From IMG/VR virus record IMGVR_UViG_3300020469_000184, positions 1 through 29,233 of that record: a DNA stretch of 29,233 bases; one strand, 5' to 3'. The stretch comes from a virus. Made by a program: the position numbers and the translations under genes. Positions 10,192 to 16,363 of the stretch are shown piece by piece. The stretch's first letter is position 1. Each line of letters opens with the position of its first letter. The notes beneath the pieces were generated by a model. The model did no database searches. It saw only the letters and a program-made list of their open reading frames with translations, and was not told the DNA's origin.

Positions 10192-11892
10192 ATGGCAGAA
10201 GTACTTTTATCCCCAGGCGTATCAGCAATAGAAAATGATAATTCTTTTATCTCAGCACAGCCTGTACAAGCTGGAGCAGCAATATTAGGTCCCACAGTTA
10301 AAGGCCCAGTTGGTATACCAACAGTTGTTACTTCCTACTCAGAATATAAAAACAAATTTGGATGCATAGTAGAAAGTGGAAGTGTAGAATACACTTATTT
10401 TACTTCAATAGCAGCATATAACCATTTCCAACAAGGAGGAGGTTCATTATTAGTAACTAGAGTAGTATCTGGTTCCTATTCAGCAGCATCATCTTCAATC
10501 TCAGGAGCAAATGACACAGCTTCATTTGTTTTAGAAACTTTATCAGAAGGTGAAATAATGAACAGTTCAGGTTCAGAAGATTCAAGCAGTGGTGCTTTAT
10601 CTTCAGGATCTAAAGAAAACGTTAGATGGGAAATTCAATCCCCAAACACGGCTGCTGGAACATTTAATTTATTAATTAGAAGAGGTGATGATATTACTAC
10701 TTCTAAAAACATATTAGAAACTTGGGCGAATTTATCATTAGATCCAAATTCTCCAAATTATATAGAAAAAGCAATAGGTAATTCAAAACAAACAGTTAAA
10801 GAAGATGATGGTGATCATTATGTTGAGAATACAGGAACATACAATACTTTAAGTAAGTATGTAAGAGTAAAATCAGTAGGACAGCCAACATTAAATTATT
10901 TAGATAATTCGGGAGATGCTAAAGAAGCTTTAACAGGTTCAATTCCACAAGCAGGCTCAGGTTCATTTGCAGGAGCTTCTGGTTCAATTGCATCTGGAGC
11001 TAATTTTTATGAAAATATAGATTCAACAAGTTCACAGGGATTAACTGGAAATGATTATACTGAATCAATTTCACTTTTATCAAACCAAGACCAATATAGA
11101 TATAACTTAATAATAGCACCTGGTTTAACAAAAGAAAACAATTCAAGTACAGTATCTCAAATGATAGACAGTTCTCAACAAAGAGGAGATAGTTTAGCCA
11201 TTGTAGATTTAAGAGACTGGGGTTCTACCATATCACAAGCAACTAACGGAGCAGCAGGAATTGATTCTTCATATGCAGCAACATATTGGCCATGGGTTCA
11301 AACGATTGATCCTGATTTAGGATCTCAAGTTTGGGTACCAGCTTCAACAATGATGGCAGGAGTATATGCTTTCAATGATAAAGCAGGAGAAGCATGGTTT
11401 GCACCAGCTGGATTAAATAGAGGTGGAATGTCAACTGTATTAAGAGCTGAAAGAGCCTTAACAAATGGAAACAGAGATACTTTATATCAAGCAAATATTA
11501 ACCCAATAGCTACATTCCCTAACACAGGAGTAGTAGTATTTGGACAGAAAACAATGCAGAAAAAACCAAGTTCTTTAGATAGAGTAAATGTAAGGAGATT
11601 ATTAATTGCTCTTAAGAATTTCATTTCTCAAATAGGAGACCAATTAGTATTTGAACAAAACTCAACAGCTACAAGAAATAATTTCTTAGCACAAGTTAAC
11701 CCATATTTAGCAAGTGTACAACAAAGACAAGGATTATATGCCTTTAAAGTAGTAATGGATGAAAGTAACAACACACCAGATGTTATAGATAGAAACCAAT
11801 TAATTGGGCAAATATACATTCAACCAACTAGAACAGCTGAATTCATATACTTAAACTTCAATGTACAACCAACAGGAGCTTCATTTGAATAA
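10192..11892 (+). CDS. 18: Tail sheath protein, T4 gp18-like
   Basis: This is the contractile sheath subunit. The N-terminus EVLLSPGVSAIENDNSF, followed by AAILGPTVKGP and GIPTVVTSYSEYKNKFG, is the standard phage_sheath_1 opening. The C-terminal domain contains RVNVRRLLIALKNFISQIG and a final FIYLNFNVQPTGASFE strand, which carry the handshake interactions of sheath subunits in the family. A variable, Ser/Gly-rich insertion lies in the middle (about 95-150 and 240-290). At 566 aa it is shorter than T4 gp18 (659 aa). It is followed by the tube gene, as in T4. Confidence 0.97.
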   Translation: MAEVLLSPGVSAIENDNSFISAQPVQAGAAILGPTVKGPVGIPTVVTSYSEYKNKFGCIVESGSVEYTYFTSIAAYNHFQQGGGSLLVTRVVSGSYSAASSSISGANDTASFVLETLSEGEIMNSSGSEDSSSGALSSGSKENVRWEIQSPNTAAGTFNLLIRRGDDITTSKNILETWANLSLDPNSPNYIEKAIGNSKQTVKEDDGDHYVENTGTYNTLSKYVRVKSVGQPTLNYLDNSGDAKEALTGSIPQAGSGSFAGASGSIASGANFYENIDSTSSQGLTGNDYTESISLLSNQDQYRYNLIIAPGLTKENNSSTVSQMIDSSQQRGDSLAIVDLRDWGSTISQATNGAAGIDSSYAATYWPWVQTIDPDLGSQVWVPASTMMAGVYAFNDKAGEAWFAPAGLNRGGMSTVLRAERALTNGNRDTLYQANINPIATFPNTGVVVFGQKTMQKKPSSLDRVNVRRLLIALKNFISQIGDQLVFEQNSTATRNNFLAQVNPYLASVQQRQGLYAFKVVMDESNNTPDVIDRNQLIGQIYIQPTRTAEFIYLNFNVQPTGASFE

Positions 11893-11945: not shown

Positions 11946-12434
11946 ATGCCAGTATTAGATCCAAACGAAATATTTTTCACCGCCTTTGAACCAAAGCAAG
12001 CTAACAGATTTATCCTTTACATGGATGGTATACCAAGCTTTATCATTAAGGGAGTAGCAGCAGTAAACGTATCTCAAGGTACGGTAGCTTTAAACCATAT
12101 CAATGTTCAAAGATATGTAAAAGGTAAAACTACTTGGGGAGCAATTTCAATGACATTATTTGATCCAATCACACCATCAGGTGCTCAAGCAGTAATGGAG
12201 TGGGTAAGATTACATCACGAATCAGTAACTGGTAGAGATGGTTATTCTGATTTTTATAAAAAAGACTTAACGGTTAATATATTAGGTCCTGTAGGGGACA
12301 TAGTTTCGGAATGGGTAATAAAAGGAGCTTTGATTACAGAAGCTACATTTGGAGATTATAGCTGGGATTCTGAAAATGAAGCAAAAGAAATTGCTTTAAC
12401 AGTTCAACCAGATTATTGCGTATTAAATTTCTAA
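11946..12434 (+). CDS. 19: Tail tube protein, T4 gp19-like
   Basis: This is the tail tube subunit, which stacks as hexamers within the sheath. The length of 162 aa is close to T4 gp19 (163 aa). The pattern KQANRFILYMDGIPSFIIKG at the N-terminus and a central ITPSGAQAVMEWVRLHHESV helix are typical, as is the ending DSENEAKEIALTVQPDYCVL. The helix EWVRLHHE is followed by GYSDFYKKDLTVNILGPVGD, as in T4-type tubes. It is bounded downstream by a strong terminator. Confidence 0.97.
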   Translation: MPVLDPNEIFFTAFEPKQANRFILYMDGIPSFIIKGVAAVNVSQGTVALNHINVQRYVKGKTTWGAISMTLFDPITPSGAQAVMEWVRLHHESVTGRDGYSDFYKKDLTVNILGPVGDIVSEWVIKGALITEATFGDYSWDSENEAKEIALTVQPDYCVLNF

Positions 12435-12532: not shown

Positions 12533-13270
12533 ATGAACGACTTCCAGTTTCCAACAGAAACAGTAGAATTACCTTCAAAAGGTTTAGTATACCCCCAAGA
12601 CAACCCTTTATCAAGTGGAAAAGTAGAAATAAAATACATGACTGCTAAAGAAGAGGATATTTTAACAAACCAATCCTATATTCAAAAAGGTATAGTTTTA
12701 GATAAACTATTAGAATCAGTAGTGGTATCTAAAGTGAATATAAAAGATTTAATAGTAGGAGATAAAAATGCCGTTTTAGTAGCAACTCGTATTTTAGGAT
12801 ATGGTAAAGATTATGTCTTTAATTATTTAGGAGAAGAACATACTATAGATTTAACTACTTTAGAAAATAAAGAATTTGATACTTCATTGGTTAAAGAGGG
12901 TAAAAATGAATTTACATACAAATTACCCCACACGGGAACTGAAATTACATTTAAAATTTTAAATGGTAACGATGAAAAAAAGATTGAAAAAGAAATATTA
13001 GGTCTTAAAAAAATGAATAAAAATTCTTCACCCGAATTATCTACCAGATTAAAATATATTATAACATCTGTAGGTGGAGAAACAGAATCAAAAACAGTAA
13101 GAGAATTTGTAGATAATTATTTATTAGCAAGAGATTCTCGAGCATTAAGAGAACACCTTAATGTTATCCAACCAGACATAGATCTAACACATACGTTGGA
13201 TGATGGAGAGGAGGTGAAAGTCCCTATTGGACTTACCTTTTTTTGGCCTGACTACGGAGATAATATCTGA
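12533..13270 (+). CDS. 26: Tail assembly chaperone / baseplate protein, T4 gp26-like
   Basis: A 245-aa protein of the T4_baseplate (gp26) type. Diagnostic blocks are VELPSKGLVYPQDNPL, VEIKYMTAKEEDILTNQSYI and KGIVLDKLLESVVV at the N-terminus, a cluster of charged helices in the middle, and VPIGLTFFWPD at the end. In contractile tails, proteins at this position chaperone the tape measure, and the gene order (tube, this gene, a short overlapping ORF, tape measure) is that of lambda G/GT-like chaperones. The last 44 nt overlap the next ORF in another frame. The segment coding for E-E-V contains a perfect Shine-Dalgarno, and a T7 run encodes the final F-F, so two products from this locus are possible. 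Confidence 0.85.
   Translation: MNDFQFPTETVELPSKGLVYPQDNPLSSGKVEIKYMTAKEEDILTNQSYIQKGIVLDKLLESVVVSKVNIKDLIVGDKNAVLVATRILGYGKDYVFNYLGEEHTIDLTTLENKEFDTSLVKEGKNEFTYKLPHTGTEITFKILNGNDEKKIEKEILGLKKMNKNSSPELSTRLKYIITSVGGETESKTVREFVDNYLLARDSRALREHLNVIQPDIDLTHTLDDGEEVKVPIGLTFFWPDYGDNI
13209..13217 (+). promoter_or_regulatory. Internal Shine-Dalgarno AGGAGGTGA
   Basis: This is a nine-base perfect match to the anti-SD, inside gene 26, 9 nt before the TTG at 13227. It is written with GAG GAG GTG codons, whereas Glu is mostly GAA elsewhere in the window. No other start in the window has a comparable site. Confidence 0.75.
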
Positions 13271-13541
13271 AGCCAGGGTTAATTTATTTTCCCTAATACA
13301 CCAAATAGTTTTTCACGGTAAAGGAGGATATGATTATCCTACTATTTACAATATGCCAATATGGTTAAGAAGATTTACTTTTTCTGAAATTCAAAAACAT
13401 TACGATAATGAAAAGAAAGAGTATCAAAAAGCAAACCAAAAAGAAGGTTCTACCAACCTATTAAATTCAGATGGCACTGTGAACACACCTGCATTTATGC
13501 AAGCTTCTAAACCCTACCAGAAAAAAAGTACGTATAAATAA
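13227..13541 (+). CDS. Overlapping tail-assembly ORF (T-domain-like, gp51 position)
   Basis: A 104-aa ORF, in the +1 (or -2) frame relative to gene 26, immediately upstream of the tape measure. It has no ATG start. It can begin at TTG 13227 behind the internal Shine-Dalgarno or be reached from gene 26 by a shift at the T7 run (13238-13244). The core, NMPIWLRRFTFSEIQKHYDN, and the preceding LIHQIVFHGKGGYDYPTIY are distinctive and look like a tail-assembly 'T' domain; the rest is Lys/Glu/Gln-rich. The position corresponds to T4 gp51 or to the lambda T extension. A single-base sequencing error would fuse both frames, but the SD and codon choice argue for real biology. Confidence 0.7.
   Translation: MDLPFFGLTTEIISEARVNLFSLIHQIVFHGKGGYDYPTIYNMPIWLRRFTFSEIQKHYDNEKKEYQKANQKEGSTNLLNSDGTVNTPAFMQASKPYQKKSTYK
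13238..13244 (+). promoter_or_regulatory. Candidate slippery T7 run
   Basis: ACC TTT TTT TGG in the gene 26 frame. A +1 or -2 slip here moves ribosomes into the downstream frame, giving ...TFF(F)GLTTE. A modest inverted repeat follows (13247-13250 with 13274-13277, and 13258-13261 with 13265-13268). Confidence 0.5.
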
Positions 13542-13579: not shown

Positions 13580-16363
13580 ATGGCCACTAGCGATAAATTA
13601 AATGAAATAAATGATCTTTTAAGAAAGATATCTCAGGCTTATGACACCTTGGGGGATGAAAACCCATTCAGAAATTTTAATAAAAAACCAATTGAAGATG
13701 CTGATGCAGCTATTAAACAACTTCAAATTGGGCTAGATGGAGTTAAATCTCGAATTCAAGGAACTACTGATTCTTTTAGTAGCTTGTATGGTGTATTAAG
13801 AGAAATTTCTAAAGAAATAAATCCCAAAATATTTAGTTCTACTAAACTTTTAGAGGGAGGAATGAAGGGAATGGTTAAAGAGGCCCAAAAATTAAAATTT
13901 GAAGAAGAAGGAATTAATAGGCTAAACGAGGATCAATTAAAAAAATTAAAAACAAAGTTCAAAGAACAACAATCCATTGCTAAAACCGCAGCTGAAGAAA
14001 TAAAAAGTCAATTTGAATTAGTAAAATTTAAAAATAAAAGTGGGAAAGAAGAAACTAGGTATAGAGATGTAAATACTAAAAAGTTTGTAAAATTAACTAA
14101 TGCTCAGAGATCCGCATTGGGAATATTAGATGATGAAAACGATATTTTAGGCGATATTCTGCTTAAAGTATCACAAAGAATACGTCAAGAACAAGAAGTT
14201 ACAAAAGCTATGGGGGCAGCCCCTGCAATTTTAGAGGGTATAGGAAAAGCTCTACAAAAAATAGGCCTCCCAGACTTTGGGATTAAAGGAGCTATTGAAG
14301 AATCTAAAGCTATTTTAGTTGCAAAACAAAAAGAGTATGATGAAAATGCTAAATTAGGTAAAGAAGATAGAAAAAGAGTATCTGCCTTTCAAGCACTTTC
14401 AACCACATCAAAACAAATTGGAAAAAATATTGCAAAACAGTTAACATTTGCAAACGCTTTGCAAGGTGGCTTTACAATGTTAGTTTCTGCTATGGTAAGT
14501 ACAGATAAAGCCACAGGAGCATTAGCTAAAAATATAGGGGTAAGTTACAAAGAAAGTTTAGGTTTACAAAAAGAATTTAACCAAATAGCCATGTCTTCGG
14601 ATAATATAATGGTTAGTAGCGCAGCTTTAAATAAATCATTTGCATCATTAAACCAACAATTCCAAGGAACAACTAACTTTAGTAAAGAAACTTTAGAATC
14701 CTTTACAGCTTTAACAGCACAAGCTGGATTTTCAGAAGAAACAATTGGAAATATTACTAAATTAACAGGGGCCCAAGGGAATGAGATTAATGATAATGTA
14801 GCTCTTTTACAGGGAGAATTATCAGCTATGAATGCTGTGAATGGGACTACCTTTAGTACTAAACAAATGTTAGAGGATATTGGTAAAATAAATAAATCAA
14901 CATTACTAATATTAAATCAACAACCCCAAGCACTAGCTAAAACTTTATATACTTCTAAAAAATTAGGTCTCTCTTTTGCAGAAATGGAAAGTATATCTTC
15001 TAGTATGCTAGATTTTGAATCGTCTATTCAAAATGAATTAGAAGCAGAATTACTAACAGGTAAAAATTTAAATTTAGAGCAAGCCAGATTATTAGCTTTA
15101 AAGGGCGATGTAGCTGGGGCATCAGCGGAAATAGCTAAACAAGTAGGATCCGCCGAAAAATTTGGTAAAATGAATGTTATCCAACAAGAATCACTAGCTA
15201 AAGCTGTTGGATTAACAAAAGATCAATTAGCAAATAGTTTAATAGAACAAGAAGCTATTGCTGCACTTTCGGAATTTGAAGGAAAAACTGCTAGAGAAAA
15301 ATATGAGAATGCAGTAGCTTTATATGGAGAAGAAGAAGCTAGGCGAAGATTAGGAAACGATATTTTAGCACAACAAATGGATTCTCAATCAAATGCCGAA
15401 AGATTTGGAGCTGCCGTTGAAAGAATTAAAGAATTATTTATAAATGTAGGAGAAGCTATTATGCCTGCTGTTTCACTAATTTCTAATTTTGCTGGGGGTG
15501 TAGCTAAATTAGTAACTAAATTTCCCTTATTAACTCAATCTATAGTTGCAGCTGGTTTAGGTTTTAAAATTATCAATGCTTTTTCTGGGGGGGTTCTTAG
15601 CAATCAATTAAAAATTAATGCAGCTTCTAAGCTTGGGTTAATAACAAAACAACAAGAAGGTTTAATTTTAAAAGGAAATCTTGCCACTGATGTTGCAGCA
15701 GCCGAAAATTTAAATGGAATAAATATCGCTAAAAAATTAGGACTAATATCAGAAGAACAACAAGCCTTACTTAAAAAAGGAAGTCTTGCTACTGATATAG
15801 CATCTAATACAGCTGAAAAAGTAAATAATACTTTAAGTGCCACGGGTAATAAAATTGAAAAAAGAGGATTATTAGCCAAAATAGGTGGAGCTGTAACATC
15901 TGCAATGGAAACAGTATTTTCAGGACCAGGTAAACTTTTAGGCCCATTTGCAATTCCTTTAGCTTTAGCAGCGGGAGCGGCTATAGGAGCTATAGGTTAT
16001 TCTTTTATGAAAGATGGTAAAATTGATCCTAAAAAAGGACCAACAATGACAGGAGATTTTGGAACAGTTCAAATGGATCCTGCAGATAAAGCTATGTATG
16101 GTGCTGATGGAAAAATTAAAGTAGGAACAAATTTAATGGGAGAAGATGGAAATATTAGTGGGGAGGCAAGTTCATCTAGTGCAGGAAGCGGCCCAAGTTC
16201 TCAATTATTAACAAGTTTAAACACAAAACTAGATCAACTTTTAGTAGTTAATAAAAGAATAGCAGAAGTATCAGGAAACAGAAAACAAGACAACATTACA
16301 CTTGAAATGTTTGGAGATAAAGTAGGAAAGGGAGTGCAGAAAGCTGAACGAATAATGAATTAA
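13580..16363 (+). CDS. 29: Tail tape measure protein
   Basis: A 927-aa protein that sets tail length and occupies the tube lumen. The evidence is its place after the chaperone pair, its length, its long Ala/Lys/Glu/Gln-rich helices (about 40-330), and hydrophobic segments near 632-673 and 784-810 (PFAIPLALAAGAAIGAIGYS) that may enter the host membrane at DNA ejection. A duplicated unit lies near 684-741: KLGLITKQQEGLILKGNLAT and KLGLISEEQQALLKKGSLAT. It is longer than T4 gp29 (590 aa). By the usual rule of about 0.15 nm per residue, the tail would be roughly 140 nm. The C-terminus (FGDKVGKGVQKAERIMN) is polar. Confidence 0.9.
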   Translation: MATSDKLNEINDLLRKISQAYDTLGDENPFRNFNKKPIEDADAAIKQLQIGLDGVKSRIQGTTDSFSSLYGVLREISKEINPKIFSSTKLLEGGMKGMVKEAQKLKFEEEGINRLNEDQLKKLKTKFKEQQSIAKTAAEEIKSQFELVKFKNKSGKEETRYRDVNTKKFVKLTNAQRSALGILDDENDILGDILLKVSQRIRQEQEVTKAMGAAPAILEGIGKALQKIGLPDFGIKGAIEESKAILVAKQKEYDENAKLGKEDRKRVSAFQALSTTSKQIGKNIAKQLTFANALQGGFTMLVSAMVSTDKATGALAKNIGVSYKESLGLQKEFNQIAMSSDNIMVSSAALNKSFASLNQQFQGTTNFSKETLESFTALTAQAGFSEETIGNITKLTGAQGNEINDNVALLQGELSAMNAVNGTTFSTKQMLEDIGKINKSTLLILNQQPQALAKTLYTSKKLGLSFAEMESISSSMLDFESSIQNELEAELLTGKNLNLEQARLLALKGDVAGASAEIAKQVGSAEKFGKMNVIQQESLAKAVGLTKDQLANSLIEQEAIAALSEFEGKTAREKYENAVALYGEEEARRRLGNDILAQQMDSQSNAERFGAAVERIKELFINVGEAIMPAVSLISNFAGGVAKLVTKFPLLTQSIVAAGLGFKIINAFSGGVLSNQLKINAASKLGLITKQQEGLILKGNLATDVAAAENLNGINIAKKLGLISEEQQALLKKGSLATDIASNTAEKVNNTLSATGNKIEKRGLLAKIGGAVTSAMETVFSGPGKLLGPFAIPLALAAGAAIGAIGYSFMKDGKIDPKKGPTMTGDFGTVQMDPADKAMYGADGKIKVGTNLMGEDGNISGEASSSSAGSGPSSQLLTSLNTKLDQLLVVNKRIAEVSGNRKQDNITLEMFGDKVGKGVQKAERIMN

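Follow-up and report, generated by a model that had tools for sequence, protein, structure and literature searches.

Comparison of a gp26-type gene (ORF1) and the reading frame that follows it (ORF2) with their relatives points to a programmed +1 ribosomal frameshift at positions 13238-13244 of the window, a reading to which we assign a probability of roughly 0.88. The window is the whole stretch of DNA analysed, 29,233 nucleotides of the IMG/VR virus record IMGVR_UViG_3300020469_000184. One mRNA would give rise to two tail assembly chaperones via the +1 shift: most ribosomes would read ORF1 to its stop at 13268, giving a short gp26-like form, while a fraction would slip on TTT TTT TGG, with peptidyl-tRNA-Phe re-pairing from UUU to the overlapping UUU. 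Reading would then go on as TTT GGC CTG ACT, yielding a long form with a gp51-type C-terminal domain. We infer both the ribosomal nature and the efficiency of this slippage. The functions of the two products are likewise drawn from lambda G/GT: by analogy, the short form would be expected to cover the tape measure protein, and the long form, made in minor amounts, to bring in subunits of the tail tube.

All features discussed below lie on the plus strand. ORF1 (12533..13270, 245 amino acids) is identified as a short tail assembly chaperone (TAC-N) from its match to phrog_150, its relatives and an AF2 model, and its zero-frame stop is the TGA at 13268..13270; in relatives, this stop falls 15-39 nt 3' of the first T in the slip site. 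ORF2, shifted by +1 with respect to ORF1, is open from 13218 and ends with the TAA at 13539-13541. Counted from a TTG at 13227..13229, which the preliminary description of this DNA proposed as its start codon, it spans 104 amino acids (13227-13541). The out-of-frame overlap reported in that description is confirmed by coordinates and frames. The Shine-Dalgarno (SD)-like element AGGAGGTGA (13209..13217), the TTG exactly 9 nt 3' of it and the run of seven T (13238-13244) are likewise all where they had been placed, and 23 nt separate the AGGAGG of the element from the first T. The slip site itself, recognised by its conservation, occupies 13238..13246 and reads TTT TTT TGG in the zero-frame phase and TTT TTT GGC in the +1 frame. 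Directly after it, a TGA in the -1 frame (13249..13251) would end a -1 shift. Read in the +1 frame, ORF2 (13239..13541) would encode the C-terminal domain of the long chaperone, beginning FFGLT and ending YNMPIWLRRF, as indicated by protein alignment and hmm, and the predicted frameshift product (TAC-NC) would span 12533..13541 and comprise 335 amino acids.

How unusual is this arrangement within the window? GAG makes up 427 of 2165 Glu codons in gp26, in keeping with the claim that the GAG codons of the SD-like element are unusual. The further claim, that SDs are lacking elsewhere in the window, is correct for start codons, an SD-like core being present at only two of the 26 others (2977 and 16731), but not for the motif itself, as AGGAGG hexamers occur 14 times on the plus strand. 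There are also six runs of seven or eight T. Neither the SD motif nor the T run is therefore remarkable from the window alone; the weight of the observation comes from the near-invariance of the slip site across 238 loci and from the enrichment of the SD-like motif over a null expectation.

The genomic setting is that of a tail assembly chaperone locus. Upstream lie genes for a tail sheath protein (10192..11892; PF04984, PF17482, phrog_23) and a tail tube protein (11946..12434; phrog_4542, E 2e-21), the latter 61% identical to its counterpart in Flavobacterium phage immuto. Downstream is a gene (13580..16363) for a tape measure protein, assigned by similarity to the annotated tape measure protein of immuto (25.5% identity over 745 amino acids, E 7e-55). 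The order is thus sheath, tube, ORF1, ORF2, tape measure, and the pair sits between the major tail tube and tape measure genes, which is the place of lambda G/GT-type tail assembly chaperones.

ORF1 has a match in phrog_150 (baseplate hub, E 1.4e-7), a family that T4 gp26 and T4 gp51 also match, and through this shared family is homologous to recognised tail assembly chaperones. AF2 models were made for the two halves separately. That of ORF1 has a pLDDT of 90.8, and its best named fold matches are T4-type baseplate hub proteins (Foldseek against predicted hub proteins, TM about 0.6-0.8); its top PDB match is the HK97 tail assembly chaperone 2ob9, at a non-significant E of 0.98. The ORF2 model is a short helical domain of three helices, and a fold search with this model alone gave no significant match. 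At the level of the protein sequence, ORF2 is recognisable by the conserved stretches FFGLT, GGY and YNMPIWLR and by the invariant residues F1, F2, L4, P40 and R44, and its hmm matches in 239 loci. The ORF1 model also matches Foldseek BFVD entry A0A343LED6, and the ORF2 model matches A0A343LED7 without significance (E 1.3); these are consecutive accessions of Leptospira phage LE4 and perhaps represent another split or frameshifted pair. Separately, one gp26-like reading frame (L072:2861-3583) carries an early stop, likely an assembly indel.

The relationship with T4 can be taken further. T4 gp26 aligns with residues 5-203 of T4 gp51 (hhalign E 2.3e-20), and gp51 has 46 extra residues at its C-terminus; since gp51 is a gp26-like protein plus a C-terminal extension, gp26 resembles the short form and gp51 the long form. 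A profile of the window family alone gave no significant match to gp26 or gp51. A fusion profile of frameshifting members, in contrast, aligns end to end with gp51, including the C-terminal extension (E 5.6e-6), though the match is moderate (hhalign probability 86%) and emerged only after distant frameshifted members had been added to the profile. At the sequence level only, then, the long form is the short form plus a C-terminal domain.

We assembled 80 close IMG/VR relatives, 160 more distant ones and isolates, from which 238 loci with overlapping ORFs were obtained. Every one of these loci, which come from many metagenomes, has ORF2 in the +1 frame, and the same arrangement is found in the cultured phages Immuto, Mel-JY01, RM378, SP-15, LIS04 and GXN1. 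The alignment of relatives proposed as a check in the preliminary description thus bears out the frame relation and a near-invariant slip site; the SD-like element is missing in about a third of representatives. No locus was found among the relatives in which the two ORFs are fused in one frame, and in close relatives the run is seven T, neither six nor eight; either outcome had been named beforehand as one that would speak against the proposal. The sequences themselves show the conserved overlap, its frame, the slip site, the missing start codons, the gene order and the homology.

Across the 238 loci the slip site reads TTTTTTTGG in 192, TTTCTTTGG in 35, TTTCTATGG in four and CTTTTTTGG in three, with the rarer variants TTTTTTTAC in two and TTTCTATTC and TTTCTTTAC in one each. 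In immuto the site is TTT CTT TGG. Ranked by variability among 108 representatives, the lowest four of 245 synonymous codon columns all fall in the stretch TTT TTT TGG CCT GAC: F238, P241, F239 and D242, with variabilities of 0-0.018, against 0.099 for the next column and a median of 0.48. Dual coding can account for the constancy of P241 and D242, as the +1 frame reads GGC CTG AC here, but, provided that the slip takes place within the T run, not for that of the third base of the first slip codon. That base is T in 108 of 108 representatives, though TTC makes up 22% of Phe codons. Common descent limits the independence of the loci in this statistic, and the chance of finding all TTT is 1.4e-4 when loci are thinned at 70% identity (36 loci) and 0.013 at 60% (17 loci). 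Moreover, T is absent from the position just 5' of the run (75 C, 25 G and 8 A), from which it follows that T8, a canonical -1 site, is avoided. A fixed T in the third position together with the lack of a T before the run is expected if the slip occurs on these codons and T8 must be avoided. In 91 of the 108 representatives the -1 frame ends three codons past the slip site. A fixed frame relation across divergent relatives is accordingly found together with a conserved slippery sequence that allows tRNA re-pairing.

That the locus is an artefact or that the shift occurs before translation can be judged from the same comparison. Homopolymers are prone to indel errors in sequencing, so a sequencing or assembly indel might have split one gene, or the arrangement might be due to chance; yet it is common to the 238 loci and to separately sequenced genomes of cultured phages, leaving this explanation a negligible probability. 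RNA polymerase slippage on the T run would give mixed mRNAs, some placing ORF2 in frame, and a 7-base homopolymer is indeed conserved in most loci. But the clades reading TTTCTTT or TTTCTAT keep the frame relation although none of their runs exceeds three bases. In addition, the run stays in one codon phase and T8 is avoided, whereas slippage would benefit from greater length. We regard polymerase slippage as extremely improbable; the existence of a clade that reads TTTCTTT effectively rules out both it and sequencing error. A few distant relatives have CTTTTTT, again with the same frame relation.

A different possibility is that ORF2 is a separate protein, with internal initiation at the TTG at 13227 driven by the perfect SD. 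In the window, this SD is 9 nt from the TTG and its predicted duplex with the anti-SD has an energy of -13.0 kcal/mol, whereas most other starts come out near 0, and in two lineages ORF2 is indeed an independent gene that begins with an ATG. However, only 86 of 238 loci have the TTG, which derives from ATT GGN codons, and many have a stop in its place. No conserved start codon is found at SD distance in the ORF2 frame, and about a fifth of representatives have no ATG, GTG or TTG for ORF2 at all: near its start, none occurs before +60 in 25 of 106 representatives, and none before position +100 in 23 of 108. In 32 of 108, no more than 2-8 nt of open +1 frame precede the T run. Given the missing start codons and a +1 frame closed so near to the run, initiation cannot be general, and the 21 changes in start-lessness on the gp26 tree indicate that no start codon is being kept. 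Initiation would also not account for the frozen T7 and the avoidance of T8, and the window's own genes do without SDs. We therefore consider it very improbable. Of the two explanations put forward in the preliminary description, SD-led initiation thus finds no support, while frameshifting (+1 or -2) to a G/GT-like chaperone pair is upheld.

If the ribosome does shift frame, does it move forward by one or back by two? Phage Mu uses a -2 frameshift. In a -2 shift, the P-site tRNA at the second codon would slip back onto UUU or UUC, so that the product gains a Phe. The T7 run allows cognate re-pairing two bases back, UUC pairs too where the site reads TTT CTT, and either shift, -2 or +1, needs a T at position 3. 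Three observations weigh on the other side. First, where CTA is the second codon (2 of 108 representatives), re-pairing at -2 is poor whereas the +1 option is good. Second, the isolate GXN1, with TTC TTT CGT, also pairs poorly at -2, while its second codon offers a +1 slip from UUU to UUC. Third, +1 re-pairing at codon 1 is possible in all 108 representatives, in which this codon with the next base is YTT-Y (TTT-T, TTT-C or CTT-T). The slip-site variants therefore favour a +1 shift, and a -2 shift appears improbable.

What might stimulate a +1 shift at this site? AGGAG or GGAGG is found between -40 and -15 in 70 of 108 representatives, against 19.3 +- 4.0 under a synonymous-codon null, and the enrichment recurs in each of three clades (21 of 29 against 4.0, 21 of 29 against 6.7 and 28 of 50 against 8.8). 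The 3' end of the element clusters 24-27 nt before the first T. In some loci of the window clade, the first Glu codon is replaced by AAG, AGG or GTG with GGAGG or GGGAGG retained. The distance between the element and the T run is too great for the known prfB-type arrangement, with its 3-nt spacing of SD and slip codon. In relatives the element lies at -32 to -24; hosts probably ignore SDs, and the spacing fits no known mechanism. Other candidate stimulators gave no clear signal: RNAalifold predicts no pairs for 26 sequences around the site, single-sequence folds around it are not clearly better than shuffles, an Rfam search of the same region gave no match, and pairing between the purine tract and the T run shows no clear excess over the synonymous null (4.35 against 3.93). 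The A-site codon is a sense codon; it is neither a stop nor demonstrably rare.

No general motif is known for forward frameshifts (PRFect, PMC10885494). As a tentative and rather doubtful proposal, UUU UUU U (YUU YUU U) in the zero-frame phase might serve as a heptamer for forward slippage, with the tRNAs in the P and A sites each moving +1, helped by the SD-like element about 23 nt 5'. Equally tentatively, such a site could be seen as a mirror image of the -1 heptamer, operating in hosts whose ribosomes normally hide the anti-SD; the hosts are probably Bacteroidota.

Two loci offer a natural control. L069, which shares its contig with L267, and L303 encode the ORF2 domain independently, in a gene that begins at an ATG (MEVSEKLRKQLEFFGIS... 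and MMEINEKLRNQLAFFGIS..., respectively), and the end of ORF1 reads TTC TTC TGG CC(G/A) GA(C/T), the T-run signal having been lost. In L303, the segment between the halves (2191-2900), at the site of the relatives' overlap, is a putative GIY-YIG-like homing endonuclease gene, judged by its sequence. Although only two loci are involved, it is suggestive that the slip signal disappears where the shift is not needed. Since ORF2 is a separate gene in these lineages, fusion may not be strictly needed either.

In a small divergent clade (L248, L261-L265), ORF2 lies in the -1 frame and lacks a start codon. The slip site there is GAT TTT TTC, a canonical T TTT TTC site, and an GGGGAGGT element lies closer to it, at about 15 nt. 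In several isolate genomes the ORF2 coding region is unannotated or a tiny ORF, namely in Flavobacterium phage immuto (L082, MW353175.1 150539-150800), Bacillus phage SP-15 (L249) and Listeria phage LIS04 (L250). A +1 join would restore ORF2 in these three annotations.

Frameshifting at G-T is widely conserved among long-tailed phages 'except T4', according to a 2016 review (PMC5009743). The locus is like lambda G/GT, to which we liken it by gene arrangement, in that two chaperones are encoded by overlapping genes just 5' of the tape measure gene and the long form would arise by a frameshift near the end of the short gene. It is unlike lambda in the direction of the shift (+1 rather than -1) and in a slip site with zero-frame phase YTT YTT T. 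The T4 (Straboviridae) proteins gp26 and gp51 belong to the same family, phrog_150, but are divergently oriented paralogues at two loci, with gp51 uninterrupted and no frameshift, whereas the window phage has a single locus that would be read with a +1 shift. A short gene accompanied by a longer, fused one is present in some T4-like phages, as the PRFect paper (PMC10885494) relates in citing Vladimirov et al. 2022, and the alignment of gp26 with gp51 agrees with this scheme. PolyT -1 signals in T4-like phages are mentioned in the Adele paper (PMC12846349), again by way of Vladimirov et al. 2022. In the stretches of cyanophage Syn9 examined, no gp26 or gp51 annotation was present.

Release factor 2 (prfB) provides a further parallel: its +1 shift takes place at a YUU-U codon (CUU U) and is accompanied by AGGAGGU. 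It differs in that only 3 nt lie between SD and slip codon and that the A site holds a stop, as opposed to 23 nt and a sense codon in the window. The prfB +1 site is present in Bacteroidia whose ribosomes otherwise ignore SDs, and Flavobacterium johnsoniae prfB has such a site with AGGAGGU though its ribosomes hide the anti-SD (PMC8710568). Among tail chaperones, that of the haloarchaeal myovirus HSTV-2 very likely uses a +1 frameshift (PMC5009743), and that of Vandenendeviridae a -1 frameshift at GTTTTT (PMC12846349). The former shares the direction of the shift and the latter a T-rich slip site, but both belong to different phage groups and are likened here by description. In the papers compared here, we found no prior description of a +1 site with this sequence across the T4-type group. 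Tail chaperone frameshifting as such is known; +1 tail chaperone frameshifting in T4-type phages appears to be new, with some uncertainty as to priority.

Taken across the family, the +1 relation characterises a very large T4-type group whose isolates infect Flavobacterium, Microcystis, Rhodothermus, Bacillus, Listeria and Streptococcus. A single protein family would thus have arrived at several expression solutions: the +1 group, the duplicated genes of T4, a small group with a canonical -1 site, and two loci that lost the shift after the halves separated. It would also mean that annotations need correcting, ORF2 being missing, truncated or listed as a separate gene in the isolate genomes examined. 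Finally, the requirements of a +1 site on sense codons could be learned from this signal.
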